35,279 nt of DNA from Bacteroidota bacterium. GTDB lineage: Bacteria; Bacteroidota; Bacteroidia; Bacteroidales; F082. A program made the position numbers and the translations under genes. Positions 963-21,939 of the stretch are shown in pieces. Positions within the stretch are counted from its first letter, which is position 1. Each line of letters begins with the position of its first letter. The notes beneath the pieces are model-generated. The model was not told the origin of the DNA. It saw only the letters and a list, made by a program, of their open reading frames with translations, and made no database searches. The DNA is taken from contig QMPA01000009.1 in NCBI GenBank assembly GCA_003650365.1, positions 1-35,279 on the forward strand, given 5' to 3'.

Positions 963-970
963 TACTTTTG
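963..970 (+). promoter_or_regulatory. Bacteroidota-type -7 promoter box for the surface operon
   Basis: TACTTTTG fits TAnnTTTG exactly and lies about 70 bases upstream of the ATG at 1043, giving an AT-rich leader. No good TTTG -33 element is seen at the usual 19-21 base spacing, so the assignment rests on one box. Confidence 0.5.
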
Positions 971-1042
971 CCCGGAAAATTTTTAATCTTAAAACGAGCT
1001 TTCTTATTTATTCTAAAATTATTTAACCAAATTTATTTGATT

Positions 1043-1618
1043 ATGAAGACTTTAGTAAAAATTCTAATTAGTATTATTTTAATTGCAGGAATTACTGCAA
1101 CGATGAATGCACAGGTTGACAACGTAGATGCCCATGACATTACGATCACAATTCCTGAAGTTGCACTTCTTGACATTGAGCCCAATGGAAGTACAATTAC
1201 AATTGGTCCGGCAGCACCTTTAGAGGAAGGTGATCCTATTGATTTTTCGGCTGCCACCGACAACACATTATGGATGAATTACTCCTCAATAATAGGCTCA
1301 ACTACAGAACCTTCACGTGATGTAACTGTGTCTATTACTAATGGGACCTTGCCGGGGGGTATGGAACTAAAAGTACTGGCAGCAGCAGATGCTGGTAGTG
1401 GAGCTGGAACAGTAGGCACAGCAACTGCGGAAGTAACCCTTAGTGCAACAGGACAAAATGTAGTAACAGGGGTAGGAAGTTGCTATACAGGTACTGGTAC
1501 CGCAAACGGACATCAGATGACTTATACATTGATATTGTCAGCCCCGGCCAATTATGGCGATCTTGACTTTGATGATGCAACAACATTAACTGTTACATAC
1601 ACCCTTACAGATAATTAA
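1043..1618 (+). CDS. Secreted beta-rich putative surface subunit, paralogue of 5257-5814
   Basis: This is a 191-residue protein. The ATG at 1043 is chosen because it begins a clean signal peptide (basic start, ILISIILIAGI core, cleavage after MNAQ); the frame extends upstream to a TTG at 968, which would bury the signal. The mature part is all-beta in character, rich in Thr, Gly and Ala, and nearly free of Lys and Arg. It aligns along its whole length with the product of 5257-5814: shared blocks are L-x-DIEP, W-x-NYS, V-x-I-x-NG, a GxGAG stretch, YTGxGxxNGHQxTY and the final strand TLTVTYTLTDN. Such short exported proteins with a conserved C-terminal strand recall fimbrial subunits and, in the last strand, WxL proteins, but that is inference. 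It is the first gene of the operon and is followed by a terminator hairpin, as expected for an abundant major subunit. Confidence 0.8.
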   Translation: MKTLVKILISIILIAGITATMNAQVDNVDAHDITITIPEVALLDIEPNGSTITIGPAAPLEEGDPIDFSAATDNTLWMNYSSIIGSTTEPSRDVTVSITNGTLPGGMELKVLAAADAGSGAGTVGTATAEVTLSATGQNVVTGVGSCYTGTGTANGHQMTYTLILSAPANYGDLDFDDATTLTVTYTLTDN

Positions 1619-1635
1619 GAAGGGTAGAATTAATG

Positions 1636-1680
1636 AAAAGGCACTCCTGTTGAAAACAGATCAACCGGGACTGCCTTTTT
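1636..1680 (+). terminator. Rho-independent terminator or attenuator inside the surface operon
   Basis: AAAAGGCA at 1636-1643 pairs with TGCCTTTT at 1672-1679. A second inner stem, GTTGA with TCAAC, closes a short loop, and a run of five T follows the stem (1676-1680). It lies 18 bases after the stop of the first gene and before the ATG at 1713. All five genes run the same way, so it would reduce rather than end transcription of the downstream chaperone- and usher-like genes. Confidence 0.75.
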
Positions 1681-1712
1681 ATGCATACAGGTTTTTAAGA
1701 TACCCAATTATT

Positions 1713-2525
1713 ATGATTAAGCATAATTTATGGATGTCTGTTATTTGGGCGTCACTTTTTCTATTATTTTTTTCCAGTAGTACTTTAGCTAATATTATTG
1801 TTGTGAATGGCTTAACCCATGAATACAAAGCTTTATCTGGAGAAACATATCGGGGAACAGTAGAAGTACAAAACAATAGTGATAAGGATCAGTATGTAAA
1901 GATTTACCAGAAAGACTACTTTTTTTTCCATACGGGTGAAATACTATATAACGATCCCGGAAGTAGTGAGCGCTCAAATGCGAATTGGATCACACTTAGC
2001 AACAATTACACAAAACTTGCTGCCGGTGAAAAATTGTCTATTCAATATGAAGTTACAGTACCAAATTCTGACTCGCTTATCGGGAGTTATTGGAGCCTGA
2101 TAATGATAGAAGGTGTTAATGACATTGACACCAATAACATAACAGGTGGAATAAGCATTCAGTCGGTGATGCGTTATGCTGTTCAGATTATTACAAATAT
2201 AAATGAAAGCGGACTGAGGAAATTGGAGTTTATTAATGTCAGCTTACTAAACGAAGACAGTACCAAGTTTCTGCAAGTAGATATAAAGAATACCGGTGAA
2301 AGATTCATGAGTCCTGTATTAAAACTGGAATTATTTGATTCTATAGGTAATTCAGCCGGTATATTTGAAGCTGTAAAACGGAAAGTCTATCCCGGAACAT
2401 CTACACGCTCACGGGTGATTATTGATGACGTTCCACCGGGCCTGTACCAGGCACTTTTAATAGCTGATAATGGAGATGAATATGTATTCGGACTTAATCT
2501 ATCTCTTGAAATCGAAGATGATTAG
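1713..2525 (+). CDS. Exported two-domain Ig-like protein, chaperone/WxLIP-like
   Basis: This is a 270-residue protein. The ATG at 1713 starts a signal peptide (MIKHNLWMSVIWAS, then a hydrophobic core and cleavage near STLA); an upstream TTG at 1650 in the same frame lies inside the terminator hairpin and is rejected. The mature protein appears to hold two beta-sandwich domains, roughly residues 28-145 and 150-265. The first has the pattern seen in PapD-like and WxL-interacting proteins: V-x-V-x-N-x-SDK, a strand with YFFFHTGEI, then WITLSNNYTKLAAGE and a GSYWSLIMIEG strand. The second begins with VDIKNTGERFMSPVL. No Cys pair or membrane anchor is seen. Its stop overlaps the start of the barrel gene by 8 bases, so the two are probably translationally coupled. 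A periplasmic chaperone or surface partner for the small subunits is my inference. Confidence 0.7.
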   Translation: MIKHNLWMSVIWASLFLLFFSSSTLANIIVVNGLTHEYKALSGETYRGTVEVQNNSDKDQYVKIYQKDYFFFHTGEILYNDPGSSERSNANWITLSNNYTKLAAGEKLSIQYEVTVPNSDSLIGSYWSLIMIEGVNDIDTNNITGGISIQSVMRYAVQIITNINESGLRKLEFINVSLLNEDSTKFLQVDIKNTGERFMSPVLKLELFDSIGNSAGIFEAVKRKVYPGTSTRSRVIIDDVPPGLYQALLIADNGDEYVFGLNLSLEIEDD

Positions 2526-5250
2526 AAAACCTCTAATCAAGATTGTAATTTTCTTGTTCTTCTCTGTCACGAGTGTTTATGGAGAAAGACTAGAGCTCTC
2601 CACACCTATTAGTAAAGAAGTTCAGGCCAAGCCTGGCAAAGTTTGTTCAATACTCTATCAGCTTGACAACGATTATAACGAACAAAAAACCGTAAGCACC
2701 AGGCTGATATTACCCGACAAATGGCAAGTAGTCACACAACAGGATCATCAGGTTCTGGCAGCACACGAAAGCAGAACAGGACTATTTAGCTTTCGTATTC
2801 CTGAATACACACCTGCCGGCCAATACACTATTTCTTACGAAATAACAGGTATTTCTGATAAATCAACTTCAACAAGATTTGAAGTGATAGTTCAGGTTGA
2901 AGAAGTTGTAGAATTGTCTATGGAACTCATTTCTTCAAACAATCACATTGTTGCCGGAAATCAGGCTTCAGCCCAGTTTATTGTTTATAATGAGGGAAAT
3001 TCTGCACAAACTGTTCTGCTCGAGGCCAGTAACTGCTTGATTAGTGGGAACAACACCATCCTGCTCAATCCGGGGGAATCGCGAATCGTCAATGTAGATG
3101 CAAACTCACTGGACAGTTACACCAGGGTTACCAGCCAAAGTTTCCGCTTAACAGCAAGAATCAGCGGACAGGAAGAAGTGTTTACCGACTTGTATCATAA
3201 TTACAAAGTCATACCTGTAAAGGAGGCCGAAAATGACCTATTCTTTAGGTTTCCTGTCGAGATCAGTGCCCGGTACATTTTCAGGAATTACAAAGATGAC
3301 TTTCGTTCAGGGTTTCAAGGACAGATCTACGGCAACGGTTTTATCGACTTGCCCAAAACAAAACAATTGACTTTTCTGGCAAGGGGTCCCAATCAATTTG
3401 ATCTTTCAGTATTGGGGATGTACGATCAATATTATATTGCTTATCAACAAAAGGAATTTAGTGGGTTTTTGGGCGACAAAGCATACAGGCTGAGCCCGCT
3501 TACAGAAATGTCGCGTTATGGCAGGGGCGCCGAAGGGCAACTACGAATAAAGCGTATTGAAGTCGGTGCTTTTTACCAGCAACCCCGATTTTATCCTGAT
3601 ATTCAGGATGAAATGGCCGGCTACTTAAATGTCAGATTTTATAAGGGCAATACTATTGGGATTAGCTATTTGCGTAAAAGGTATTCGGAAAACCCTGATG
3701 ACGCACATCTTATCAGCCTAAAGTCAAGCCTGAGACCATTTGCAAATACAGTCCTTGATATTGAACTGTCAAAGGGTTTCATCGGCGATAAAAGTGATTA
3801 TGGTTTCTATACAAACTTTATTGGTAATTGGGGAAAAGTAAATGTTTCGGCAACGCTGTTGTATGCGGGTAAATACTATCCGGGCTATTATACAAATTCA
3901 CTGTTTTATACGGTAATGGCCAACTGGCGAATCACCAAAAGGCTTAATGTGAGTGCGAATATCCGACAAGACTATAAAAATGCTGCTCAGGATACCTTAT
4001 TTGGTACAGCACCATACAACCAGGGTTATTATGTTGGTGTAGGATACATGTTTCAAAATAATATAGACCTACGCTTGTATTACGACTATAAAGAACGGAT
4101 AGACCGGGCAGAAAAAAAGAAATTCCATTACCGCGAACATGTAATCAGGTTGTATTATTCGCACGACATCAGGCGATTTAGCTATTCGCTAAATGGCGAA
4201 GTTGGAAATACCGAAAACATGCTTATCACCACCGGCAACCGGTTTTCTGATGCATACCGCCTGGCTCTCGACTTGTATTACCGTATTGGTAACCGGATAC
4301 AAATAAGTGCCATGGGTAGCTTTATGTCGAACAACCGATATTCAGAAACAACACAAAATCTTTGGGTAATAGGAGGAAGCATTTCAGGTAGAATAGCTAA
4401 GAAACTTTATTTATTTATTCGCTACCAAAGCGATTATGAAATTGAAGAGTATTATCGGGACAGAAGTATCTTTACGGCTAATATCGACTGGTATATCAGC
4501 AGGAATCACAAATTATCGGCAATTGGAAATTATGCCCTTGTTCAAAAGCAGTTAGATTTAAAGGATTATTCAGCAGGATTTACCTACACTTATAGCTTTG
4601 GTGTCCCTTTAAAGAGAACGGCAGAAGCGGGGTCTATCAATGGAAAGATTAACAATATTTCTGCCCAGCGTGTTGAAGGCATTATTTTGCAATTAAATGG
4701 CCACTCTGTAATAACCGGGAATGATGGTAGTTTTGCATTGAAGAATATAAATCCCGGGACATATTTCTTACTAATCGACAGAAGCACGATTGGATTTGAT
4801 GAACTACCTGATGTTCAAACACCAATTAAAGTAGAAGTTATCGGTGGACAAGAAACTTTTATAACTTTTGGTTTGACTACTGCGGCAAAAGTTTTTGGTA
4901 AAATAGAAGTGAAAAACGAGGGAAAACAGTCGAAGATACTTAGTAGTGATGGTGATATCGGACACCTGATACTGGAGTTAATGAATGATGATGAATCAAT
5001 AAAAATTATAAGCGATGAGATGGGTAAATATGTGTTTCCACAGGTTCGCCCCGGAAAATGGAATTTGAAAATCTATCCAAATGGTATGGCCAGAAACTAC
5101 CGCATTGAAAAGGATATCTATCAGTTAGATTTAGAGCAAGGTGAGCAAATTGATATTCCCATTATACTTATTAAGAAAGAAAGGAATATTATTTTTGTAA
5201 ACAATACACTTGACTTGACAGAAAGCAATCTTAAAGTCGAAAAAAAGTAA
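2518..5250 (+). CDS. Usher-like outer-membrane beta-barrel with Ig-like and CarboxypepD-regulatory-like domains
   Basis: This is a 910-residue protein starting at the ATG at 2518, which overlaps the upstream stop and opens a typical signal peptide (MIRKPLIKIVIFLFF..VYG); an earlier in-frame ATG at 2470 would hide the signal. Domains in order: two Ig-like domains (about 25-125 and 130-235, with NEW3-like patterns such as VAGNQASAQFIVYNEGN), then about 460 residues of alternating strands rich in Tyr, Arg and Gly that look like an outer-membrane barrel (240-700). Two carboxypeptidase-regulatory-like domains follow (about 705-785 with GSINGKI and NGHSVITGNDGSFALKNI, then 795-880 with DEMGKYVFPQVRPGKW). 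The order resembles fimbrial ushers and large CarboxypepD_reg outer-membrane proteins, but I cannot see the plug of a classical FimD usher. It is probably the export or assembly platform for the operon's small proteins. Confidence 0.75.
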   Translation: MIRKPLIKIVIFLFFSVTSVYGERLELSTPISKEVQAKPGKVCSILYQLDNDYNEQKTVSTRLILPDKWQVVTQQDHQVLAAHESRTGLFSFRIPEYTPAGQYTISYEITGISDKSTSTRFEVIVQVEEVVELSMELISSNNHIVAGNQASAQFIVYNEGNSAQTVLLEASNCLISGNNTILLNPGESRIVNVDANSLDSYTRVTSQSFRLTARISGQEEVFTDLYHNYKVIPVKEAENDLFFRFPVEISARYIFRNYKDDFRSGFQGQIYGNGFIDLPKTKQLTFLARGPNQFDLSVLGMYDQYYIAYQQKEFSGFLGDKAYRLSPLTEMSRYGRGAEGQLRIKRIEVGAFYQQPRFYPDIQDEMAGYLNVRFYKGNTIGISYLRKRYSENPDDAHLISLKSSLRPFANTVLDIELSKGFIGDKSDYGFYTNFIGNWGKVNVSATLLYAGKYYPGYYTNSLFYTVMANWRITKRLNVSANIRQDYKNAAQDTLFGTAPYNQGYYVGVGYMFQNNIDLRLYYDYKERIDRAEKKKFHYREHVIRLYYSHDIRRFSYSLNGEVGNTENMLITTGNRFSDAYRLALDLYYRIGNRIQISAMGSFMSNNRYSETTQNLWVIGGSISGRIAKKLYLFIRYQSDYEIEEYYRDRSIFTANIDWYISRNHKLSAIGNYALVQKQLDLKDYSAGFTYTYSFGVPLKRTAEAGSINGKINNISAQRVEGIILQLNGHSVITGNDGSFALKNINPGTYFLLIDRSTIGFDELPDVQTPIKVEVIGGQETFITFGLTTAAKVFGKIEVKNEGKQSKILSSDGDIGHLILELMNDDESIKIISDEMGKYVFPQVRPGKWNLKIYPNGMARNYRIEKDIYQLDLEQGEQIDIPIILIKKERNIIFVNNTLDLTESNLKVEKK

Positions 5251-5256
5251 ACTGAT

Positions 5257-5814
5257 TTGAAGAAGACCAAACACCATATTACTACACTTGCGCTAATACT
5301 TGCTTTGTCGGCTATTGTATCTACAACACAAGCCCAGGTTACTGATAATGCTAATTTGCGATTAAAACTATATCAGCTTGCATTTATTGACCTTGAACCC
5401 GATAATGGCATTATTTCTTTTTCATTAGCGCAGCCAACAAATCCGGGCTTACCAGCCGAGTCTGGCAACAACAACTCGAAATGGATCAATTATTCCTGCT
5501 GTGTAAAAAACAGCAAACCTGACCGCTACATTACAGTAGAAATAAACAATGGAAGCATTCCGCCAGGACTTGAGCTTCAGCTAAGTGCCTCGTCGTATTC
5601 CGGAACTGGGGCGGGGTTACTGGGAAGCCCGTCAGGAACTGTCGTTTTAACTGCCATTGCGCAAACTCTAATTAGTGGGATACGCGGCTCCTATACAGGG
5701 AACGGTGCAAATAATGGCCACCAACTAACATATAATTTGGTTATCACAGACTATAGCTTGCTTGATTATGATCAGTCATCAACAATCCAGGTAGTTTATA
5801 CAATTGTTGATTAA
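5257..5814 (+). CDS. Secreted beta-rich putative surface subunit with TTG start
   Basis: This is a 185-residue paralogue of the first subunit (1043-1618). The start must be the TTG at 5257: a stop codon lies just upstream in the same frame (5248-5250), the signal peptide MKKTKHHITTLALILALSA..TQAQ begins there, and the protein has no internal Met. Shared with its paralogue are the IDLEP block, W-x-NYS, the NGSIPPGLEL segment, GTGAG, YTGNGANNGHQLTY and the final strand STIQVVYTIVD. It contains an adjacent Cys-Cys after NYS that the paralogue lacks. It lies 6 bases after the barrel gene and 9 bases before the next, clearly in one operon. The weak start codon and distal position suggest a lower-abundance minor or tip subunit, which is inference. 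Confidence 0.8.
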   Translation: MKKTKHHITTLALILALSAIVSTTQAQVTDNANLRLKLYQLAFIDLEPDNGIISFSLAQPTNPGLPAESGNNNSKWINYSCCVKNSKPDRYITVEINNGSIPPGLELQLSASSYSGTGAGLLGSPSGTVVLTAIAQTLISGIRGSYTGNGANNGHQLTYNLVITDYSLLDYDQSSTIQVVYTIVD

Positions 5815-5823
5815 ACAAAACCA

Positions 5824-6327
5824 ATGAAAGGAATAGAAAATAAAATACGCCACTTATTGACATTAGCTATGTTTCTCCTTAGTTTTTCTACGCTTTTCGG
5901 ACAAGCGACCGTAACTGTCTGGGGGAACTGGCGGCAAAATGTCGAAGCTACGGAAATTACCAATGCTGGTGATGATTTTCCAAATGTTTACGAAAGTGCA
6001 GCAGACCAATCAAGGTTAAGAGTAAGAAGACAACCTACTTCGCAATTATTTCCTTGGAGGATTGACGTAAGGGGTGATATTGTTACATGGGACAATAGGT
6101 TGGAAATATGGATCAGAAGAACCAATGATGGAATTAGTATTACTCCGGGCGCCACGATAACCGGAGGGATGGTTTACCAACAGATATCAATTTTCGATCA
6201 ATACTTTTTCGAGGGGAATGGTTCTATCAGAAGAATTGCATTGCAATACCAATACAGGGGTGTTTCAGTAGTTATTCCTGCTAAAACATACAGACAAACA
6301 ATTGTTTACACCTTAACAGAGCTTTGA
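5824..6327 (+). CDS. Third small secreted protein of the surface operon
   Basis: This is a 167-residue protein with a signal peptide (MKGIENKIRHLLTLAMFLLS..LFGQ) and an all-beta mature part that is richer in Arg and Trp than the two paralogous subunits. It is not an obvious full-length paralogue, but its last strand, TYRQTIVYTLTEL, matches the ends TVTYTLTDN and QVVYTIVD of the other two. I do not recognise the family. As the last gene of the operon it may be an adaptor, tip or anchoring subunit. It ends 9 bases before the convergent propeller gene, and I see no strong terminator between them. Confidence 0.7.
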   Translation: MKGIENKIRHLLTLAMFLLSFSTLFGQATVTVWGNWRQNVEATEITNAGDDFPNVYESAADQSRLRVRRQPTSQLFPWRIDVRGDIVTWDNRLEIWIRRTNDGISITPGATITGGMVYQQISIFDQYFFEGNGSIRRIALQYQYRGVSVVIPAKTYRQTIVYTLTEL

Positions 6328-6336
6328 GCACCAGCA

Positions 6337-7728
6337 TCATTTGTCTTTATGCACTAATGTAACCCCCAATTTACTTACTATCCAAACCGCCTCGTTTTTG
6401 TCTTTGAAAATGTCCAGAATGCGGTCATCTGCAAGGCCCGAGTCTTCTGTAAAATGCTCCATTTTATTTTCACTGTAATGATATATGCCATCCCTTCCCG
6501 TTCCCAGCCATATACTTTCCTTGTTCTCGACAAATATTACATTAACGTCCCATTTTCCATCAGCTTTCAAAAGCTGTTCCCAACTGCCCTCATTAAACTG
6601 ATAGAAAGCATTTTCACCAGCCAGCCAAATACCGTGTCGGTCTTTTTTGATCATTGAATATTCCTTATCAATAAGCCCGTCCTTTTTGCCGTATTTATAC
6701 CATCCGTTGCTCTTAAAAACAGCCACTCCCCCTTTTGCAAAAGCAATTACATCTTCGCCATTCATTGTCAGGGATTCGACTTCATCTTTTAGTTTAAAAT
6801 CATTTTTAGTAAATGATTGCCATTTTCCTTCTTTAAACAAACCCAGGCCCGCAAATTTCAGGTTGTTGTATGCAAATGCCCATATTCGGATCTTATTATC
6901 TTGTTGCAATTTTACAATACGATTCCCACTTAAGCCATCTTTTTTATTGTAGTGTTTCCATCCATCAGTTCCCTGCCTGGCAACACCATTGTCCATGGCC
7001 GCCCATATATTCCCATCCTTATCTTCCAGAACAAATAAAACCTTTTCGCTTTTTAGCTCTTTTTCTTTGTAGGTTTTCCAATTCACTCCGTCAAATTCAA
7101 AGGCTCCTTCCATTGAACTCAACCAAATATTGCCCTTACTGTCCTGAAAAAGTCTTGTAAAATAATCAGTTGTATAACCCGGAATAATGGCAGAAGTGCC
7201 ACCAATAATATCATTAAAATCAACCCAACGATCACCACTATACATATGTAACATGCCATTGGAAAGGGAGAAATTCATTTGTGCTGAAGCGTTAACTACT
7301 TGCAAATATTCACTTGTAATCCAAAGTCTTCCCTGCCGGTCTTCCATAAAAAACTTTGGTATAAATTTATCGTCATCTTCTTTTACGAAGCTTGTCCAAT
7401 ACTTGCTGTTATAAATAAAAAGGCCTTCGGAACTACCTACCCAAATATTTCTTTTGCTATCTTCAAATAGCACATTAACCCTGCCAATTGTTTTAGGTTT
7501 TCCTGACTTACTGTCTTCGATATTTTTAAGCGCATACCATTTCGATCCGCTATAAGCCGTTAAGCCATTCGAAGTCCCAATCCATACCACACCCTTTGAA
7601 TCAACCAGGGTTACGGTGACCTCCGAAGAGGTAAGGCCATCTTTTTTTGTATGGGACTCGAAACTTTTTTGTGCTGTCAAGTGGAAATGGCAGACACAAA
7701 GTATCAGTAGAAATAGTTTTGTTTTCAT
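6337..7728 (-). CDS. Secreted two-component-regulator-propeller (Reg_prop) protein
   Basis: This is a 463-residue exported protein (signal peptide MKTKLFLLILCVCHFHLTAQ). The rest is made of propeller repeats of the type W-x-G-T-x-x-G-L-x-x-Y: VWIGTSNGLTAYSG, IWVGSSEGLFIYN, IWLSSMEGAFEFD, IWAAMDNGVARQG, IWLGTGRDGIYHYS and VWIVSKLGVTLV, with degenerate copies between. In Bacteroidota these blades usually form the periplasmic sensor of hybrid two-component systems. Here the protein stops after the propeller, with no membrane segment, kinase or DNA-binding domain, so it cannot signal alone. It may be a binding or scaffold protein, or lend its sensor role to a kinase elsewhere. It converges on the surface operon. 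Confidence 0.85.
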   Translation of the reverse strand: MKTKLFLLILCVCHFHLTAQKSFESHTKKDGLTSSEVTVTLVDSKGVVWIGTSNGLTAYSGSKWYALKNIEDSKSGKPKTIGRVNVLFEDSKRNIWVGSSEGLFIYNSKYWTSFVKEDDDKFIPKFFMEDRQGRLWITSEYLQVVNASAQMNFSLSNGMLHMYSGDRWVDFNDIIGGTSAIIPGYTTDYFTRLFQDSKGNIWLSSMEGAFEFDGVNWKTYKEKELKSEKVLFVLEDKDGNIWAAMDNGVARQGTDGWKHYNKKDGLSGNRIVKLQQDNKIRIWAFAYNNLKFAGLGLFKEGKWQSFTKNDFKLKDEVESLTMNGEDVIAFAKGGVAVFKSNGWYKYGKKDGLIDKEYSMIKKDRHGIWLAGENAFYQFNEGSWEQLLKADGKWDVNVIFVENKESIWLGTGRDGIYHYSENKMEHFTEDSGLADDRILDIFKDKNEAVWIVSKLGVTLVHKDK

Positions 7729-7882
7729 CGGTTGCGACCTTTTTTACAAAAAAATCAGACTTTAAAAGTAGGCCTTTTTTACGAGAGAGAATAGAAGTAT
7801 GGATGTTAAACACTCCCTAATAGACAAACGCTTAACTACAATCGGTCAACAGTAAGTTGATAAAGTCCAATTGCTATTTCTA

Positions 7883-9154
7883 TTAATTATCAGCATTCAT
7901 CCTGACAAAGTCACCACTTTTAGGAAACTGGTAAACTTTCAGATCGAATTGGGGGATAACGGCAAGGATATGATCAAAAATATCGGCTTGAATGTCTTCG
8001 TACTTTGCCCACTCGATGGTTGTTGTAAACACGTAAACCTGAATGGGAAGGCCTTTTTCTGAAGGTTGTAATTGCCGTACAAGGAAAGTCATGTCGTCAT
8101 GAATATCAGAACGGTTATGTAAATAAGCTTTTAAGTATGCTCTGAAAACACCAATATTTGTCTGGCGGCGGCCGTTTACAAGAACCGAAGGGTCAACTTT
8201 ATTTTTGGTATTATAATCGTTAACCGTTTTTTCTGTTTCTTCAATATAGGCGCTCAGTACATGAATTTTGCTAAATCTTTCCAGCATTTCTGGTGTGCAA
8301 AACCGAATACTATCCATATCAATATTAATGGAGCGTTTGATCCTTCGCCCGCCGGAATCTTCCATTCCACGCCAGTTTTGGAAGGAATCGGAAATAAGAC
8401 TGTAAGTGGGAACGGTTACAATTGTTTTGTCCCAGTTCTGGACTTTTACCGTTGTCAGGTTAATCTCAAGAACCGTTCCATCGGCACCATATTTTGAAAC
8501 GGTAATCCAGTCGCCAATTGATAGCATTTTATTGAAAATCAATTGTAAACCACCAACAAAGCCAAGAATAGGATCTTTAAATATCAGCATGATTACTGCC
8601 GATATTGTACCCAAGCCTACGACAAGTGATCCAATATTTTTATCGAAAAGTACGCCAATTACCACCATCCCGGCAACGATGTAAAGAATAATTTTTAAGA
8701 TTTGAATCAATCCTTTTATGGGATGATCTTTCGCAAAATCATAGCGGTCGTAATAATCATTAATGGTTGATAACACACTGTCAAGTACGAGTACAATGTT
8801 GAAAACAAAGAATACTTCCAGCGCACTTTGGATAAAACTGGAAACAATACTCAAGCTAAGAATGGCATCATCGATAAAATAATAAAGGATGAGTGCAGGA
8901 ACGAGATAGGAAACTTTTCTGAAAAAACGGTGTTGAATGAGTAAATCGTCAAATTGATTTTTGGAACGCTGGACTAAGGGGATCAATAATTTACGCATGA
9001 GTTTCCAGGCTGCAATATATCCGATGTAAGCGATAAGGATGAGAAAGATCAGCGTGATAGATTCACCAAAATGTGTAGCCCAAGATTCTGAAAGTCCTGT
9101 TTTGCCCAGCCATTCGGTTAGGAAATCTGTGAATTGTCTGACATATTGTTCCAT
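7883..9154 (-). CDS. ybdG: MscS-family mechanosensitive channel, YbdG-like
   Basis: This is a 423-residue inner-membrane protein, close in length to E. coli YbdG (about 415). Five hydrophobic segments lie in the first half. The last is the pore helix region LVVGLGTISAVIMLIFKDPI, followed by the MscS beta-domain entry GLQLIFNKMLSIGDWITV. The segment DSFQNWRGMEDSGGRRIKRS is characteristic of the YbdG subgroup rather than MscS or MscK. A soluble cytoplasmic domain of about 200 residues ends the protein. The family opens on membrane tension to release solutes in osmotic downshock; YbdG gives a small (MscM-type) conductance and affects osmotic signalling. It is a stand-alone gene 74 bases from its upstream neighbour, with no clear promoter box. 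Confidence 0.9.
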   Translation of the reverse strand: MEQYVRQFTDFLTEWLGKTGLSESWATHFGESITLIFLILIAYIGYIAAWKLMRKLLIPLVQRSKNQFDDLLIQHRFFRKVSYLVPALILYYFIDDAILSLSIVSSFIQSALEVFFVFNIVLVLDSVLSTINDYYDRYDFAKDHPIKGLIQILKIILYIVAGMVVIGVLFDKNIGSLVVGLGTISAVIMLIFKDPILGFVGGLQLIFNKMLSIGDWITVSKYGADGTVLEINLTTVKVQNWDKTIVTVPTYSLISDSFQNWRGMEDSGGRRIKRSINIDMDSIRFCTPEMLERFSKIHVLSAYIEETEKTVNDYNTKNKVDPSVLVNGRRQTNIGVFRAYLKAYLHNRSDIHDDMTFLVRQLQPSEKGLPIQVYVFTTTIEWAKYEDIQADIFDHILAVIPQFDLKVYQFPKSGDFVRMNADN

Positions 9155-9228
9155 AATTCCAATCTCTAAGCTGTTCCTAAGAAAATACTGTTTTGAGAGT
9201 GCCTAAATAATCTGTTGTCGGAAATTAT

Positions 9229-9933
9229 TTAAAGCCTATTGATGGCCTCCATATATTTATCGAGAATAAAGTTGAGCTTTTCCTTATCAGCTTCCGCATC
9301 ATAAATACGTATTAGGTCCATTACTCCTTTTTCATAATAAACACTTGTAAGGGCAGCATCGAAATTGTTATTCTGAAGGTTATATTTGATGGCATTTGTC
9401 ATTGTTTCAAACGCATCCCAATCCAAAAAGGCTGGTATCTGCAAATAGTGAGTTCCTTCATCAATAAGGTCTTTGAAAAGTCGGGAGTCGATTTTTTCTA
9501 CCTTGAAGAATTTTCTGACCTTGATAATACTTGAATAAGGGGAAATAGCCCGGTGTTTTTTGAAACCGATGCCCGTATTGGAAAACTTAGTAATTACCTC
9601 GCCAACATTTTTGTACAACAAGCCTTTAAACCGAATTACCTCCGACAGACCATTTTTAAACTGAATTGTTCCGGGTGTTGCTGAAAAATTGAAAGCAACT
9701 TCTTTATTGATATTGTGTACAGTACGTATAATGAATTCACTGTTAAATTCTCCTGATGTTAAAGCAAAAAGAGAATCGGGCTCTTGCAATTCAGGGACTG
9801 TTAACCCGTGGTAGCCCGGAAAGGGCTGCTGTGATTCCAGCATTAAAATGTTGCAATTCATTTCATCCTGAACTGATGCCAGGGTCTCTTTTTTAATAAG
9901 CGTTCCAACGGTTTGAATAATATTTTGGCTCAT
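9229..9933 (-). CDS. Conserved-looking cytoplasmic protein of unknown function
   Basis: This is a 234-residue protein without signal peptide or membrane segment. It begins MSQNIIQTVGTLIKKETLAS and looks alpha/beta, with an amphipathic alpha-helical C-terminus (residues 185-234). I see no nucleotide-binding, metal or catalytic motif and do not recognise the family. A near-match to the -7 box, TATCTTAG, lies on the minus strand at 9968-9975, so it may be transcribed alone. Its base composition is like its neighbours. The steady codon use and full-length frame support a real gene. Confidence 0.7.
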   Translation of the reverse strand: MSQNIIQTVGTLIKKETLASVQDEMNCNILMLESQQPFPGYHGLTVPELQEPDSLFALTSGEFNSEFIIRTVHNINKEVAFNFSATPGTIQFKNGLSEVIRFKGLLYKNVGEVITKFSNTGIGFKKHRAISPYSSIIKVRKFFKVEKIDSRLFKDLIDEGTHYLQIPAFLDWDAFETMTNAIKYNLQNNNFDAALTSVYYEKGVMDLIRIYDAEADKEKLNFILDKYMEAINRL

Positions 9934-10582: not shown

Positions 10583-10659
10583 CTACATTCATTGCATCTT
10601 AAGTGCTAGCATATTGAGCCAGACTCTTCCATGTTTTTCAAACGCTGGAAGGTCCTTTT

Positions 10660-12060
10660 TCATTCTTCTGCTGCAAACATCGGATCCCAGGGAGGGAGCA
10701 GTATGGCTTCGTTTTCAAGTATTTCCAGAGTTTTCGGATCGATGTATTTTTTATTAACAACCAACCTGAACATATATTCATCGAACCATTCATCAGTCAT
10801 TGTCAGGTAGCCTTTGTTTCCTTTGTCGGCTCCCCAACTATTTTCCAATTGCCATTTGTCAACAGTTCCATCAGGAAGAATATTTACCCCAACCAAAGCC
10901 ATTCCGTGGGTCGATCCGCTCTCAAAAGTCTGAATACGGGCTTTTTTATCATTTCCAAAAGTTACACCAAAAAGATCGTTATAGTTGTAGTTGTTCACAT
11001 CCAGTGTTCCGTTCTTGCTGTCTAATTGTTTTCCGACATCGCAGGAAAAATACATGGCTTCGTTGCCCAGAATTGACTTTTTTGCAAATGCTTTGATTTC
11101 ATCAACGGGTAAATTAATGTAACGCCAATTGACACCTTCAACCAAATTACGGTCGAATTCCACTTCATACAATTTGTTGTAATCTTTGGCAGGGTCATCC
11201 ATAAGCATTACATAATCATTCAAATCAATCCCAATTATTTCATCGTAAAATTGTTTGGGTGAATAAGTAATTTCCTCACTAATCTTACCATCCTTGTCTT
11301 TGTATTGCCAGCTAAATTGTTGCGGGGGTTCGCCAAGACTTAATACCAATATACGGTAAATTTCGGCAAGCATTTTGTTTTTTTGTTCCAGTTTAAACTC
11401 TTCATGTACCAGTGACATTGTAATGCTTCTTATTTCAAGTCCCTGTTCTCTGAGTTTCCTGCGCAACAAACGCGACATCATTGCAGTTTTTTCACTTTGG
11501 TAGGTGTCGGGCATGGCCGAAGCCGGAACCAAGCCATATTTATTTACGATATCAGCAAAGGTTGTCCACTGGCCGCCATCACCAATGGGGTTCTTAAACA
11601 GCCATTCTACTTTACGGTCGTCCAACGGTAAATTGGCTGTTGCAATAGCAATCTCCAAAAACAGATTGGCTTTTTCTAATTGATCCCAAAAGAAATTATA
11701 AGTCTGTGAGAACTCGAATTCGTTCAATGCATATTTTTCCTGAACCATTGGGCGTAGTGTGTTCAATCCTGTATAAAGCCAGCACCTGCCTGATTTTTTC
11801 TGATTGGTAATACCTTTGACATCAACACGATTAGAAAAGTAGTGGTTAATTTTCCCGTCATTTCCCCGGTTGATGGCCAGCTTTTTAATATCGTTGTGGC
11901 TTATTGCATTCAATAAAGCTGTGTTTTCAGGGTTTTGCTGAAAGCTTTCCCTAAGCTGATCAATTGTTTGCTGATCAAGGCTACCCTTCAATTCCTGGGC
12001 ATTTAACTGAACCGTCAAAAGCACGACTAACGCACTTAAAATTGTAATAGATTTTTTCAT
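10660..12060 (-). CDS. pepC: Exported C1B-family aminopeptidase C / bleomycin hydrolase
   Basis: This is a 466-residue papain-fold cysteine peptidase. Catalytic residues are visible: Gln87 in TNQKKSGRCW, Cys93 in GRCW, His385 in STHGMALVG and Asn407 in LENSWG. Unlike the cytoplasmic PepC of lactic bacteria, it has an N-terminal signal peptide (MKKSITILSALVVLLTVQLNAQ), so it should work in the periplasm or outside. Family members form hexameric rings whose C-terminal tail sits in the active site and sets aminopeptidase action; here the tail is ILLPPWDPMFAAEE. It probably trims peptides for uptake. Its leader contains a heptamer tandem repeat, and a long hairpin separates it from the SUI1 gene. 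Confidence 0.92.
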   Translation of the reverse strand: MKKSITILSALVVLLTVQLNAQELKGSLDQQTIDQLRESFQQNPENTALLNAISHNDIKKLAINRGNDGKINHYFSNRVDVKGITNQKKSGRCWLYTGLNTLRPMVQEKYALNEFEFSQTYNFFWDQLEKANLFLEIAIATANLPLDDRKVEWLFKNPIGDGGQWTTFADIVNKYGLVPASAMPDTYQSEKTAMMSRLLRRKLREQGLEIRSITMSLVHEEFKLEQKNKMLAEIYRILVLSLGEPPQQFSWQYKDKDGKISEEITYSPKQFYDEIIGIDLNDYVMLMDDPAKDYNKLYEVEFDRNLVEGVNWRYINLPVDEIKAFAKKSILGNEAMYFSCDVGKQLDSKNGTLDVNNYNYNDLFGVTFGNDKKARIQTFESGSTHGMALVGVNILPDGTVDKWQLENSWGADKGNKGYLTMTDEWFDEYMFRLVVNKKYIDPKTLEILENEAILLPPWDPMFAAEE

Positions 12061-12065
12061 TTTTA

Positions 12066-12112
12066 AACTTTTAACACTTAACTTTTAACTCTTAACTCTT
12101 AACTCTTAACTC
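12066..12112. repeat. Tandem 7-bp repeat in the leader of the peptidase gene
   Basis: Nearly seven copies of AACTCTT (variants AACTTTT and AACACTT toward the gene) run without a break from 12066 to 12112. They begin 6 bases before the peptidase start codon at 12060. On the transcribed strand the unit reads AAGAGTT. Copy number could vary by slippage and alter spacing in the untranslated leader, but no promoter box is visible inside the tract. Confidence 0.8.
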
Positions 12113-12131
12113 ATGCTCAGCCTTTTGGATA

Positions 12132-12175
12132 GTGGTCGGACGACTTTTTGACTTGGCGTATAGTCGTCTGACCAC
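12132..12175. repeat. Palindromic repeat, GTGGTC-GGACGACT family
   Basis: GTGGTCGGACGACT (12132-12145) pairs with AGTCGTCTGACCAC (12162-12175) with one mismatch, around a 16-base loop. The same arms recur at 17242-17287, so this is a dispersed repeat. It lies between the SUI1 and peptidase genes and could also end transcription, though there is no strong T-run. Confidence 0.75.
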
Positions 12176-12184
12176 ATCACTTCG

Positions 12185-12526
12185 TCAACCCCCACTTAAC
12201 TTACATTTATAACCAAGCCCTTCGAGTAATCCCTTTACTTTTTCCCGAAAGTCGCCTTGAATGATAATCTCTCCATCTTTTACAGAGCCACCGGTTCCAC
12301 ATTTCGACTTGAGTGTTTTCCCCAATGCTGTCAAATCTTCAGACTGTCCGACAAAACCGGTAACCAATGTTACTTGTTTGCCTTTTCTTTGTTTTTTATC
12401 GCGGCTAATGTAAAGGTTTTGTGCCGATGGGCTTAGTGTTTCAACTTCTTCCTCCTTCTCGTCGAATGCTTCAAAATCGGGATTTGTTGAATAAACCATT
12501 CTGCTGTTTCTATTTTTTGCTGTCAT
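12185..12526 (-). CDS. SUI1/eIF1-like translation factor (YciH family)
   Basis: This is a 113-residue protein with a SUI1 domain over about residues 35-113: VTLVTGF, then LTALGKTLKSKCGTGGSVK, then IIIQGDFREKVKGLLEGLGY. The opening MTAKNRNSRMVYSTNPDF matches bacterial YciH-type proteins and supports the start at 12526. Its start overlaps the end of the lipid-kinase gene by 17 bases, so it is probably co-transcribed and coupled. Eukaryotic and archaeal relatives proofread start-codon choice; the role of bacterial YciH is less settled, with a suggested part in repressing translation under stress. Confidence 0.9.
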   Translation of the reverse strand: MTAKNRNSRMVYSTNPDFEAFDEKEEEVETLSPSAQNLYISRDKKQRKGKQVTLVTGFVGQSEDLTALGKTLKSKCGTGGSVKDGEIIIQGDFREKVKGLLEGLGYKCKLSGG

Positions 12527-13469
12527 TTTTTGGAATTATTATTTTTAGGGATAAAGGCTTCACTTTAATTTCTAATTTCTTTTTCAATTTCACGGCCTCA
12601 CCATCAAGGTTAATCGCTCTTTCGCTTCGTATAACCTGAAGTCCGCTTGATGGGATAATTTTAACAAGTGATGACTTATGAATACGTTTTAGAAGCAAGA
12701 GATTGGCAACAGTTGGCATGTCAAAAATACGCGGTTTCTGGACAATACAAACATCCAGTTTTCCATCATCCAGTTTTGCATGGGGTGCAATTGAAGTATT
12801 GTATCCAAACTGACTGGAATTGGCAAAACTGATAAAAAAAGCCCTGACTTCCAATCGTTTTCCATCATTAAATTGAATGACATACTTTCTTGGTTTGTAG
12901 TTGAAGTATTCCTGAATCACAATACGTAAGTATGAAAAGAATCCTCTTTTATTACTCTCTGAAAACTTCTCTGCTACCAATGCATCGAATCCAATACCGG
13001 CGATACTCACAAAAGGTTTTTCATTGATCGTTGCCGTGTCAATGGAAGTAATATTAGATTCGTTAATGAGTTGAATTGCCTTCGGAACAGAAAGCGGAAT
13101 TCCCATATGTCTGGCCAGACCATTTCCGGAACCTACTGGAATAATGCCGAAAATAGTTTCTGAATTAATTATTTGCGAGGCTACTTCATTAATGGTTCCG
13201 TCACCGCCAACAGCTATAACAATATGAATTCCAGCTTCAACAGCCTCCCTGCTCAATTGTTTTGCGTGTCCTTCTGACTTGGTCAGACAAATCTCATAAT
13301 TGTATATTTCGCTGTTAATGGCCGAATGGATAATTTCGGAAATGTTTTGATTTGTTTTTCTTCCGGAAAAAGGGTTGACAATAAAACGGATTGATCTTTT
13401 TTCTTGCCTGGAATGATCTTTCAACGCATTGGTCTTCATTGGTTTTTTTGGAAGCTCTCCCGATTGCAT
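12510..13469 (-). CDS. Diacylglycerol-kinase-family lipid kinase (YegS/DgkB-like)
   Basis: This is a 319-residue protein with the DAGK catalytic fold: RFIVNPFSG (residues 28-36), the ATP-site motif GGDGTINEV (88-96), and GSGNGLARHMGIP (113-125), followed by the beta-sandwich half with DDGKLDVCIV. The family phosphorylates diacylglycerol, sphingosine or other lipids; the substrate cannot be read from sequence. There is no signal peptide, so it should act at the inner membrane from the cytoplasm. The start at 13469 lies 7 bases after the lipoprotein gene; a Met 10 residues later (13439) is an alternative. It overlaps the SUI1 gene downstream. Confidence 0.9.
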   Translation of the reverse strand: MQSGELPKKPMKTNALKDHSRQEKRSIRFIVNPFSGRKTNQNISEIIHSAINSEIYNYEICLTKSEGHAKQLSREAVEAGIHIVIAVGGDGTINEVASQIINSETIFGIIPVGSGNGLARHMGIPLSVPKAIQLINESNITSIDTATINEKPFVSIAGIGFDALVAEKFSESNKRGFFSYLRIVIQEYFNYKPRKYVIQFNDGKRLEVRAFFISFANSSQFGYNTSIAPHAKLDDGKLDVCIVQKPRIFDMPTVANLLLLKRIHKSSLVKIIPSSGLQVIRSERAINLDGEAVKLKKKLEIKVKPLSLKIIIPKNDSKK

Positions 13470-13476
13470 CCTGCTT

Positions 13477-13821
13477 TTATTTAGTCAACCTGACTTTCAC
13501 CAACCTGGTTTCTTCATTTGCATGATTGCCGGCTTCGTCCGTAACATTGTAAGTCGCTTCATATTCACCAACCACATCTACATTAACATTTTCATTAAAC
13601 TGTAACCTGTCGGTAATATCAATTGTATCATTGTTTTCGGTAATATCCCAGGCCATGGCACCCGCATCAACATAGGGGGAAAGGCCCGCACTCCATGTAG
13701 TGGGATTGGCTCCCAGTAACACAATAAACGGCTTGTTTTTGTCACCATTATCATCTTTGTTACAAGATGAAGCAAGGAAAAACATAATGACTGTAATTAA
13801 TAAAATGGCTTGTTTTCTCAT
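13477..13821 (-). CDS. Small lipoprotein with one Ig-like (DUF5011/HYR-like) domain
   Basis: This is a 114-residue protein. The lipobox LASSC places the lipidated Cys at residue 20. The mature part is one beta-sandwich domain containing PYVDAGAMAWD and GEYEATYNVTDEAGNHANEE, the G-x-Y-x-x-x-Y-x-V-x-D-x-x-GN signature shared by DUF5011 and HYR domains common on Bacteroidota surface proteins. Such domains usually act as spacers or binding modules; here one domain forms the whole protein. A -7 box at 13847-13854 probably drives this gene together with the lipid kinase and SUI1 genes. Confidence 0.8.
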   Translation of the reverse strand: MRKQAILLITVIMFFLASSCNKDDNGDKNKPFIVLLGANPTTWSAGLSPYVDAGAMAWDITENNDTIDITDRLQFNENVNVDVVGEYEATYNVTDEAGNHANEETRLVKVRLTK

Positions 13822-13846
13822 TGTTATTTCTTGTTGTTTGTAAATG

Positions 13847-13854
13847 CAAATTTA
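13847..13854 (-). promoter_or_regulatory. -7 promoter box upstream of the small lipoprotein
   Basis: On the minus strand TAAATTTG fits TAnnTTTG. It lies about 25 bases upstream of the ATG at 13821 and probably serves the three-gene run down to the SUI1 gene. No clear -33 box is seen. Confidence 0.5.
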
Positions 13855-13964
13855 TAAAAATGATTGGGTAGTCTCGTGTCTCTTACAAAAATTGAAAACA
13901 GATTTGTTAACATTAATTACGTTATGTAAAAGTATTTGAGCGCATGAACCCTAATGCAAATAAC

Positions 13965-18316: not shown

Positions 18317-18922
18317 CTATTGTGGTGGTTTAATCCCTACCAAAGTTACTACAATCTTAAAATCGTTTGGCACGATAAAACTTTGGTCGCTTTTGGCATC
18401 TTCTTCTGACATGCTGGTGTTTCCAAAATCGCTCCTGTCGAGGATGATTTCTTCGCTTATTGCCTGCAGGGTATCAGATTCAAGGATTAAATCGTATTGA
18501 AAATTAATGCATTTAGTAACTCCCAGAATAGTGATATCGCCATAAATGGTGGAGGAATTTTCCGCATTCTCAATATGGTCGATAGTGAAGTTAGAAAACT
18601 GATATTTTTCAGAATGAAAGAATTCAAAAGATTTCAGCGTGTTTTGCAGTGTTAGCCGCATCAATTCGTAGTCGATGTCGATGTCAACAATGCTGTCCAT
18701 ATTAACATTGAGATTGCCATCAACAATTTTTCCATCTACAACTTTCAATTCACCGTTTTCGAATAGGACATATCCATGATGGATGTCACAAGCCCATTCA
18801 ACTTTACTTGAATCTGTGTCAATAATATAAATAGTAGTATCCGATGTAACTTCTTCTGCAATAACAGAATAAAGGCTGAATTGTAAAAATGAAATTGTTA
18901 ATATGGTGAAAAGGAATTTCAT
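18317..18922 (-). CDS. Exported YceI-family protein
   Basis: This is a 201-residue protein with a signal peptide (MKFLFTILTISFLQFSLYSVIAEE) and one YceI domain (about 30-198): YIIDTDSSKVEWACDIH, GELKVVDGKIVDGNLNVNMDSI, FFHSEKYQFSNFTI and GDITILGVTKCINFQYDL. YceI proteins are periplasmic lipocalin-like barrels; characterised members bind polyisoprenoids or amphiphiles. It starts 3 bases after the pentapeptide lipoprotein gene and ends 4 bases before the UbiA-like gene, so it belongs to the same transcript as NosY. A role beside copper-site assembly or quinone-type lipids is inference from position. Confidence 0.88.
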   Translation of the reverse strand: MKFLFTILTISFLQFSLYSVIAEEVTSDTTIYIIDTDSSKVEWACDIHHGYVLFENGELKVVDGKIVDGNLNVNMDSIVDIDIDYELMRLTLQNTLKSFEFFHSEKYQFSNFTIDHIENAENSSTIYGDITILGVTKCINFQYDLILESDTLQAISEEIILDRSDFGNTSMSEEDAKSDQSFIVPNDFKIVVTLVGIKPPQ

Positions 18923-18925
18923 CTT

Positions 18926-19867
18926 TTAGTCATCATTACTTCCCACACTACAAACTCCGGTTATTTTATTATCTATTATCAATTCTTGAATTTCTGGCGG
19001 AATATTAATTGCATCTGTAAAATCAGTTTCCATAAATTCAACAGCAAAGAAATTACAACCCTTAATATCAGCACCCCTAAAATCGGCTTCTTGTAAATGT
19101 GCTCCCCGGAAATCAACATTCCACAAGCGGGAGTTGATAAAACTTGTTTCTTCAAGTCCCGCACCCGTAAAATCGGAATAACTAAAGTCTGACGAATCAA
19201 GTTTCGCACCTGCAAAAACAGTGATAATAAACTTAACATGCACCATCTTGCTTCCTGTAAAGTCAGCATCAGTAAACTCCGATTCCTTCATCAAAGCATT
19301 GGTAAAATCACTATTGCGAAAGTTTGCCCGATGCCCTATCACCCCAAACATATTTGCACCCCTGAAATCGGAACATTCCAGATTGGCATCATTTACATGA
19401 ATCCTAAAAAGAGTTCCCCTACCGAAGAGGCAACTTGAAAGGTTCGACCTATTGAAACTGGACCATTTCATATCGGAAAACCTGAAATCAGAATGGGACA
19501 GGTCAGCGTCATCGCATTTGGCAGAGCGGAAACTTGAGCCCCTGAAGTCAGCATTTTGAATATGTATGCCATTCCAATAGACTTCGTCGAGGTCAGCAAA
19601 CCTAAAATCGTCCTTGTCCTGGGGTATGGCCGTGATTCCTTTCTTGCGTTTCTCACCGTTATCAAGAAACATCTCCTCATTAATCACAGTCTTTCGTATT
19701 GATTTGCTGGTGAAATTGGCCAGTTTGTACATGTTTGATGTATCTGGAACAGCTTCATTATTACAGGCATACACATTCTGATTATTAGAACTGTTGCACG
19801 AATGAAAAAAAATTGTGCCTGTAATCAGCATGAAAAATAAAAAGCCGGATGAAATCCTTTTTGTCAT
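18926..19867 (-). CDS. Pentapeptide-repeat lipoprotein next to NosY
   Basis: This is a 313-residue protein. A lipobox ends FFHSC (lipid Cys24). After a linker, residues about 85-285 are pentapeptide repeats of the A(D/N)FxG type, for example NADFRGSSFRSAK, ANFRNSDFTNALM, ADFTGSKM and EADFRGADIKG. Such repeats fold into a right-handed four-sided beta-helix. It starts 2 bases after the nosY stop, so the two are one transcriptional unit. In classical nos operons the partner of NosF and NosY is NosD, also a right-handed beta-helix periplasmic protein, which is missing here. This protein may do the same job in an unrelated helix fold; that is a hypothesis. Other pentapeptide proteins mimic DNA and protect gyrase, but an exported lipoprotein should not. 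Confidence 0.85.
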   Translation of the reverse strand: MTKRISSGFLFFMLITGTIFFHSCNSSNNQNVYACNNEAVPDTSNMYKLANFTSKSIRKTVINEEMFLDNGEKRKKGITAIPQDKDDFRFADLDEVYWNGIHIQNADFRGSSFRSAKCDDADLSHSDFRFSDMKWSSFNRSNLSSCLFGRGTLFRIHVNDANLECSDFRGANMFGVIGHRANFRNSDFTNALMKESEFTDADFTGSKMVHVKFIITVFAGAKLDSSDFSYSDFTGAGLEETSFINSRLWNVDFRGAHLQEADFRGADIKGCNFFAVEFMETDFTDAINIPPEIQELIIDNKITGVCSVGSNDD

Positions 19868-19869
19868 TG

Positions 19870-20700
19870 TTAAATGATATCACTTTTATTAAAATGCCTG
19901 TTGCCTAATATTCCAAATATAAAACCCAGGATAATAGGGTAGGAGATGGCAAAAATAATAAATGCCCATCTGCTAACAGTATCAAGGATGTAATAAGAGG
20001 CAGCTCCCATAACCGTCAATTTTGGGTCGAATAATACCAAAACGGCAGTTCTGAATACCTGTAATGGGTTAAGCATTCCCAAACCAATTACCATTTCGGG
20101 GTTAACCCTGAACTTCAGCATGACTCCCATTAAAATAAGATCAAGAAAAGCAACCAATAGCAACCAGATGATAAATGCAGAACTTACTGCCAGGTCTTGA
20201 GAATGTGCGTATGAAGAGATGAACATACTAATTCCAAGAAAACAAAAAATCATTGAAGCCAATAAGCCGCTATAAAGTGCAAATAAGTCCCAGGGAACAT
20301 CGATATTTGTGATTGTACCCCAAATTGCAGCACCGAGAAGGGCAATAAAAACAGGAACAAATACAGCAATAAATTTGCTGATAAACTTGCCCCAGAAATA
20401 GGCTGTAAACGATACCGGCAATGAGAGTACGTATTCCATTACATTTGATTCGCGATCGCCGACTACTGAGCGTACTGTTGAAATTAAGACATAAATCGGA
20501 AGTATTACCATGCTCACTTGCATGAAAGTTACCATCAGCCGGCTTAATCCCACAAAGCCAATAATCTGGGATTCGGTAATTCCCATGGCAAACATCACGG
20601 CTACAAATCCGCCAAACATAAGGCTGTAAACCCAAAACCATTTTGACCTTAAGTTCTGCCTGATGTCGAGTATTAATATTTGTTGAAATCCTGAGTTCAT
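19870..20700 (-). CDS. nosY: NosY-like ABC transporter permease
   Basis: This is a 276-residue membrane protein with six hydrophobic segments. GDRESNVMEYVLSLPVSF after the second segment and GLGMLNPLQVFRTAVLVLFD before the last are typical of NosY permeases. With NosF it forms a type V-like ABC complex that couples ATP hydrolysis to a periplasmic beta-helix protein (NosD) in copper-site maturation of nitrous oxide reductase. The matching ATPase is encoded upstream at 21940-22599, separated by nosL and a frameshifted inserted gene. The next gene starts 2 bases downstream. The assignment to the nos family is good; the client enzyme is not in the window. Confidence 0.88.
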   Translation of the reverse strand: MNSGFQQILILDIRQNLRSKWFWVYSLMFGGFVAVMFAMGITESQIIGFVGLSRLMVTFMQVSMVILPIYVLISTVRSVVGDRESNVMEYVLSLPVSFTAYFWGKFISKFIAVFVPVFIALLGAAIWGTITNIDVPWDLFALYSGLLASMIFCFLGISMFISSYAHSQDLAVSSAFIIWLLLVAFLDLILMGVMLKFRVNPEMVIGLGMLNPLQVFRTAVLVLFDPKLTVMGAASYYILDTVSRWAFIIFAISYPIILGFIFGILGNRHFNKSDII

Positions 20701-20829
20701 ATTATTCTTCTAAAATATTCAAAATGACAATTATACTTTTTAAACTCCAATATACAAATTCCAAACCTCAAATAAATTCCAAACTGCAAATCTCAAACAA
20801 ATTCCAAAAATCAAAAGTCAAATTCCAAA
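20701..20829. repeat. Degenerate AAATTCCAAA repeats flanking the four-helix-bundle gene
   Basis: This gap is made largely of repeated variants of AAATTCCAAA with CTCAAA and CTGCAAA spacers (four clear copies). It is strongly A/C-biased on the plus strand. Together with the T/G-rich tract on the other side of the four-helix-bundle gene it marks the edges of an inserted cassette. Confidence 0.6.
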
Positions 20830-21194: not shown

Positions 21195-21276
21195 TGGTTA
21201 TTATTTGACCTTTGTTTTTTGTAGTTTGAGTTTTTCAATTATTTGTTATTTGAGTTTTGCTTTTTGTTATTTCAGT
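21195..21276. repeat. T/G-rich degenerate repeat tract
   Basis: This tract holds repeated variants of TTATTTGAGTTTTG and TTTTTTGTAGTTTG between nosL and the four-helix-bundle gene. It is the T/G-rich counterpart of the A/C-rich tract at 20701-20829 and probably the other edge of the same insertion. Confidence 0.5.
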
Positions 21277-21744: not shown

Positions 21745-21785
21745 CTGTTAAAGTTTTATTGATGATGTACAAAGTGTTTTTTTTG

Positions 21786-21886: not shown

Positions 21887-21939
21887 TGTTTTTTCATGAT
21901 TATCTTTTTTAGCCCTGACCTAAAGGTCAGGGTAACTGA

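Follow-up and report, generated by a model that had tools for sequence, protein, structure and literature searches.

A probable chaperone-usher-like assembly operon of Bacteroidota with a chaperone-like protein remotely related to WxLIP

The window (the whole stretch of 35,279 nucleotides that was analysed) carries near its start, on the + strand, a five-gene operon spanning 1043-6327 (Table 1), which is probably a chaperone-usher-like assembly pathway of Bacteroidota that builds surface fibres. A surface-assembly operon of the chaperone-usher or WxL kind in Bacteroidota had been predicted here, and all five genes of that prediction were found, with an 8-base overlap of the chaperone gene and the barrel gene (2518-2525) and with gaps of 6 and then 9 bases downstream of the barrel gene, exactly as described; of the span originally given, 963-6327, the end is right but the start is not, the ATG of the first gene being at 1043. 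The junction from the first subunit gene to the chaperone gene is 94 bases long (1619-1712), with a predicted hairpin inside it. The operon shares its gene order of pilin, chaperone, usher and minor subunits with six chaperone-usher operons of E. coli K-12 (fimA-I-C-D-F-G-H, sfmA-C-D-H-F, elfA-D-C-G, yehD-C-B-A, yraH-I-J-K and yadN-V-htrE-yadM). Chaperone-usher pathways are described for Proteobacteria, Cyanobacteria and Deinococcus-Thermus in the accessible portion of PMC4654587, where Bacteroidota is not among the phyla named. A foreign origin of the operon was rejected on base composition, its GC content being 39.3% compared to 39.1% for the remainder downstream, and spread on plasmids was rejected because the barrel has no match in 72,556 plasmid records.

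Table 1. Features of the operon and its control region in the window
Feature	Coordinates	Strand	Remarks
Candidate promoter element, TACTTTTG	963..970	+	80 bases before first ATG
First, probable major, subunit	1043..1618	+	191 aa; AlphaFold2 model pLDDT 93
Terminator-like hairpin with T-run, between first subunit and chaperone genes	1634..1680	+	-18.9 kcal/mol
Two-Ig-domain chaperone-like protein	1713..2525	+	270 aa; WxLIP-related by profile
Usher-like outer-membrane (barrel) protein	2518..5250	+	910 aa
Second subunit	5257..5814	+	185 aa; TTG start; paralogue of first subunit
Third subunit	5824..6327	+	167 aa; probable distant member of subunit family

Within the limits of their contigs, 24 loci (that of the window, L014-L033 and L040-L042) show the order subunit(s)-chaperone-barrel-subunit(s); these loci were fetched by their barrel, so the presence of the barrel is by construction and that of its neighbours is not. 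In 23 loci the labelled gene that precedes the barrel is the chaperone, the contig of L021 beginning inside the barrel; one to four subunits precede the chaperone in 22, the contigs of L021 and L041 beginning too late; and 23 have a subunit after the barrel, L031 ending within the barrel and the post-barrel subunit of L029, which is cut, scoring E=4.5e-5 only. In 12/24 the genes after the barrel include the distant third kind of subunit. Conservation of the gene order had been proposed as a check, and the order is kept among homologues whose barrel identity is as low as 23%, which makes it more than chance; its persistence in the 24 loci, within contig limits, and its agreement with the order of E. 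coli fim-type operons were counted in favour of the chaperone-usher-like reading. The pairwise identities of chaperones and of barrels agree over 20 loci (r=0.94, with 0 of 2000 permutations as high), an agreement that fits inheritance as a unit and would also follow from common descent. Within these loci, the chaperone of L041 (426-1133) lies in two reading-frame pieces and L027 (6332-6661) has a shortened subunit frame, each of which is possibly a decaying gene or an assembly error.

The barrel is present at full length in five of 60 relatives, with one further match to the C-terminal domain, and over most of its length in three other genomes among 395 of the class, with two more matching in the C-terminal part only. 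A scan of one genome per species over 84,980 species yielded 20 barrel loci from carriers titled Bacteroidota or, once, Chlorobiota; it was led by two short peptide patterns, by which relatives can be missed. Among the carriers with a name are Maribellus sediminis and Emticicia sp. CRIBPO; in Emticicia sp. CRIBPO two complete copies lie in tandem. A search led by the chaperone detected the family in 39 genomes, the window's own included, among 395 of the phylum, in two clades that were split by score and not by tree: clade 1 comprises the strong matches of 23 genomes (E 1.5e-35 or better) and clade 2 the weaker ones of 18 (E 3.7e-7 to 3.7e-22). Both clades occur together in two genomes, one of them that of the window (contig C21). 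The clades are homologous in their chaperones (99.9%, E=3.4e-33; 99.8% without signal peptides) as well as in their barrels (99.7%, E=3.7e-27). A same-strand barrel relative (>500 model positions) accompanies the chaperone in 14 of 20 chaperone-led regions, six of these 14 barrels having been in the alignment used for labelling barrels; among the 14, the barrel of L073 is 3.6 kb from the chaperone. In addition, one barrel (L076) is cut by the contig end, and L086 and L092 have a large neighbour under the 500-position mark that had been placed in the alignment of clade 2 barrels. No barrel was found beside the chaperone in three of the 20 (L080, L082, L083), and in two clade 2 loci (L084, L089) the barrel is upstream of the chaperone; both points were counted against the chaperone-usher-like reading. 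The best reading overall is a chaperone-usher-like pathway patchily spread in Bacteroidota, with its second clade also in the genome of the window. That second system (L073; contig C21:7000-21000) comprises a chaperone-like gene (6232-7101), a MORN-repeat protein (7106-8221), a weak subunit-like gene (9150-9740) and a barrel of 1085 aa (10659-13916), with a T9SS sorting-domain protein upstream. The clade 1 chaperone genes of L080 and L082, which have neither barrel nor subunit found alongside, belong to one genus and lie near a response-regulator-like gene (by eye).

The chaperone-like protein has a hydrophobic N-terminal stretch suitable as a signal peptide, and a C-terminal membrane helix, a feature of WxLIP, is absent from 22/22 chaperones, in whose final 40 residues no hydrophobic run is longer than 10. 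The Pfam family WxLIP_PGBD (PF06030) matches the window's protein under the cut-off (E=3.7e-4), ten of the 22 family members at E<=0.1, and the clade 2 chaperone of L091 above the cut-off. A profile of 22 chaperones matches the solved EfmWxLIP1 (E=6e-6 and 6.7e-6 for its two distinct sequences) over both domains (DUF916 and DUF3324 homology) and outside the signal peptide, and the match reaches E=2e-10 with clade 2 added to the profile. By these profile comparisons the two-Ig protein is remotely related, over both domains, to the WxLIP of Gram-positive bacteria, and WxLIP is the nearest solved relative that was found for it. Accessible parts of PMC10599100 propose from AlphaFold2 complexes that WxLIP fills a gap in WxL with a strand, and this prediction that WxLIP completes the WxL sandwich was counted for a strand-lending chaperone.

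The likeness of the two-Ig protein to fimbrial chaperones, which had also been predicted, is perhaps a more remote relation to the PapD type, and is suggestive, at the level of sequence profiles, for clade 2 only. Clade 2 chaperones align with E. coli fimbrial chaperones at 93.9% with signal peptides and at 73.6% (E=2.9e-5, 191 columns) in their mature parts (hhalign), compared to values no higher than 0.4% with 20 column-shuffled profiles and below 10% with ten cross-family pairs, and PapD_N matches six of ten clade 2 chaperones at E<=0.05 (best 8.8e-4). The direct profile match to E. coli chaperones fails for clade 1, which is the clade of the window (0.5% mature), a failure that was weighed against the chaperone-usher-like reading, as was the drop of both clades together from 86.9% to 18.4% without signal peptides. 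The mature parts were compared because other profile pairs reached 51-62% through signal peptides alone, and the statement that a PapD relation of the chaperone had been shown was given up, since it rested on alignments that included signal peptides and is weaker on mature parts.

The WxL/WxLIP (Csc) clusters of Firmicutes are a second system to which the operon may be compared. A Gram-negative complex of this kind, in which a WxLIP-like scaffold would hold the small proteins at the outer membrane or peptidoglycan and the barrel would export or anchor them singly with no fibre, is rather unlikely; it has on its side that WxLIP is the nearest solved relative and that one WxLIP-like protein with several small secreted proteins matches the WxL cluster plan, as given in accessible parts of PMC10599100 and PMC1534035, but it is opposed by the subunits, of which 0/45 and 0/13 in the two families have two W-x-L motifs and none has a WxL Pfam match, by the lack of a membrane helix in the chaperones, by the usher-like protein that adjoins in 24 barrel-fetched and 14/20 chaperone-fetched loci, and by the alternation of hydrophobic residues at the N-termini of subunits, which fits exchange between subunits. 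The operon, which adds an outer-membrane barrel and is without WxL domains, is not a WxL cluster; the predicted WxL kinship holds for the two-Ig protein and not for the subunits.

Structures were predicted with AlphaFold2 for two of the five proteins, the barrel protein and the first subunit. The barrel model (24 sequences; pLDDT 86, pTM 0.63) has two predicted N-terminal Ig-like domains (~24-235), a predicted barrel (~242-700), in which 26 strands are listed, and two predicted C-terminal prealbumin-like domains (sandwiches, ~705-890). Classical ushers have a plug domain inserted in the barrel, but the model has none, the strand list of 242-700 being without a gap of more than 13 residues. The top eight Foldseek matches of the model are FimD ushers (E 3.3e-15 to 3.5e-12), with TM-scores to these chains of 0.26-0.28 of the query; after them come unrelated sperm and cilia proteins at ~1e-11, mixed with PapC, so the E-values are flattering here. 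In VIA-align, in whose lists the absence of a family does not exclude that family, the MtrB barrel is on top (Z 19.2, rmsd 6.2, 407 aligned), FimD follows (3ohn: Z 15.8, rmsd 6.0, 350 aligned; 9bog: Z 15.7, rmsd 8.7, 410 aligned, taking in 268-885 of the model, which is the barrel plus the C-terminal domains) and porins and receptors are at Z 13-15, so that the usher match is partly that of a generic barrel. An usher-like layout of the barrel protein is likely from the model, and fold alone does not prove it. A sequence link to ushers was looked for and not found: the family Usher (PF00577) is not among the Pfam results of 24 barrels at E<=0.01 and is absent from 37 genomes (the window's own and 36 relatives) with a positive E. 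coli control, and barrel profiles gave 0.5%, 3.7% and 0.6% against ushers (hhalign). The lack of sequence similarity to ushers, together with the lack of a plug in the model, tells against the chaperone-usher-like reading, and because neither the usher family nor the plug was found where it was looked for, the operon is not filed as a member of the known chaperone-usher systems, from which it also differs in the two N-terminal Ig domains, the prealbumin-like C-terminal domains and the 26 strands of its modelled barrel. The prediction that the barrel lacks the classical usher layout is less well supported, since the best Foldseek matches are FimD and the overall domain order is similar, although the model has no plug and its N-terminal domains are of another kind.

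An ordinary porin had been named in advance as an outcome that would speak against the original prediction; the best Foldseek match is not a porin, yet VIA-align has MtrB first and porins close. Domains of the family CarboxypepD_reg are common in Bacteroidota receptors, and this family matches the C-terminal domains in 24/24 barrels, which together with the VIA-align ranking speaks for a porin that serves uptake or export and carries regulatory domains, the small proteins then being surface or periplasmic accessory binding proteins. SusC-type receptors carry such domains at the N-terminus, unlike the barrels here; no TonB plug family is among the Pfam matches of the 24 barrels, FimD is first eight times in Foldseek, and chaperone and subunit genes are conserved as neighbours of the barrel gene, all of which makes a porin improbable compared to the chaperone-usher-like reading.

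The first two subunits are paralogous, as predicted (34% identical, BLASTP E=1e-41). The third small secreted protein had been set apart from them; in profile-profile alignments with the subunit family (hhalign: 96.9% with signal peptides; 62.7%, E=7.2e-5, 85 columns in the mature parts) it probably belongs to that family as a distant member, and may be a tip or end subunit. A firm assignment of all three to one family was given up because it leaned on signal peptides and is weaker on mature parts. The signal peptide of the first subunit ends in ..NAQ (by eye) and is followed by an alternating stretch, DITITIP; the model of this protein has seven strands, the last at the C-terminus, with residues 24-39 (the first ~16 mature residues) unpaired. 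Its best Foldseek match is CfaB (E 0.075), and 15 of 50 rows are chaperone-usher pilins (manual count); its VIA-align matches include TLP-1a (Z 7.3, rmsd 4.0, 136 aligned) and CfaB (Z 6.8, rmsd 3.4, 108 aligned), and 41 of 50 rows are such pilins (manual count), in which the PDB is rich. The predicted structure ranks weakly among chaperone-usher pilins, as Z values of 5-7 are also reached by models that have no clear relative and may reflect a common arrangement only. The subunits match E. coli pilins through the signal peptide only (hhalign, 0.5% and 0.2% without it), and the subunit families have no convincing match in Pfam, NCBIfam (window proteins) or the PDB; the weak matches and the missing pilin profile link were counted against the chaperone-usher-like reading. 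Two or more cysteines are found in 8/45 and 2/13 mature subunits, so cysteine pairs are rare compared to E. coli pilins (13/13).

Alternation in the N-terminal stretch, defined as at least three alternating hydrophobic residues within the first 18 mature residues after a cut site placed by rule of thumb, is present in 29 of 36 subunits before the chaperone (4.5 expected from shuffles) and in 10 of 23 after the barrel (3.8 expected), the low share after the barrel being a further point against the chaperone-usher-like reading. Such alternation is noted as a sign of donor strands in Csu and classical pilins in the accessible portion of PMC4654587, and its frequency in first-position subunits was counted in favour of the chaperone-usher-like reading. 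Most first-position subunits have ~165 mature residues; the post-barrel subunit of seven loci (L021, L024, L026, L027, L028, L030, L033) has 143 and is without the alternating start, as would be expected for a tip or end subunit. Membership of the set in the type V (FimA/Mfa1) pili of Bacteroidota, with which it would have in common the phylum, beta-sandwich subunits, a proposed beta-rich surface polymer and the idea of a donor strand, is extremely improbable: no shared family was found, with no FimA Pfam match at E<=0.1 in the 45 and 13 subunits; no lipobox cysteine was seen at the likely cut of the subunits, which by rule of thumb begin with Q after an AQ-type site; and a dedicated chaperone-barrel pair is present here, whereas to our knowledge type V pili have none.

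A hairpin with a T-run like that of Table 1 is predicted in 14 of 21 homologous junctions from the last pre-chaperone subunit gene to the chaperone gene, compared to 2.7 expected from single-base shuffles, the 14 not being independent since some loci are near relatives; these hairpins were counted for the chaperone-usher-like reading. A general promoter and terminator scan gave no excess (20 vs 22.2; 5 vs 5.5) and does not list the hairpin of the window, and the lack of a terminator excess and the unlisted hairpin were weighed against that reading. The hairpin would allow the first subunit to be made in excess. The element at 963..970 fits what we take to be the consensus of the Bacteroidota -7 promoter element, TAnnTTTG, and is a weak candidate because this consensus is matched upstream in only 7 of 17 loci.

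The chaperone-usher-like pathway may be pictured as follows. The three small proteins would enter the periplasm by Sec, each as an Ig-like fold one strand short; the WxLIP-like protein would bind each subunit and lend it a strand of its first domain (donor-strand complementation), by which the subunit would stay soluble. Chaperone-subunit complexes would be taken up by the N-terminal Ig domains of the barrel protein, the chaperone strand would give way to the N-terminal extension of the subunit that comes next, and the polymerising fibre would grow through the barrel to the surface, its base being held by the two C-terminal prealbumin-like domains of the barrel protein. The first gene would encode the main shaft subunit, overproduced since the hairpin would reduce transcription into the chaperone and barrel genes, and the later subunit genes would encode minor, tip or end subunits.

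A more far-reaching proposal, held tentatively as possible and rather less probable than its opposite, is that the two Bacteroidota clades form a separate chaperone-usher class, in which the barrel arose apart from FimD/PapC and the chaperone has a common ancestor with WxLIP and possibly PapD; if so, donor-strand assembly would link the WxL systems of monoderms with the pili of diderms. An usher-like pathway of Bacteroidota that works with a chaperone of the WxLIP type would extend the known range by one phylum, bring a new parts list and assign a role to many genes that lack a name; it also raises the testable claim that WxLIP proteins act as donor-strand chaperones in Gram-positive bacteria as well. 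No description of this gene set was found among the listed papers of full-text searches, outside which lie preprints and most subscription papers, so its absence from print is unproven.

Elsewhere in the window, the - strand at 18317-24411 carries what we take, by eye, to be nos accessory genes, presumably NosL-like (21277-21744), an ABC ATPase (21940-22599), a permease (19870-20700) and two ferredoxin-type proteins (22642-24411), with no NosZ recognised by eye among the listed frames of the window. The convergent neighbour of the operon (6337-7728, - strand), whose end is 9 bases away from the last stop of the operon, has two-component-regulator propeller repeats (Reg_prop).
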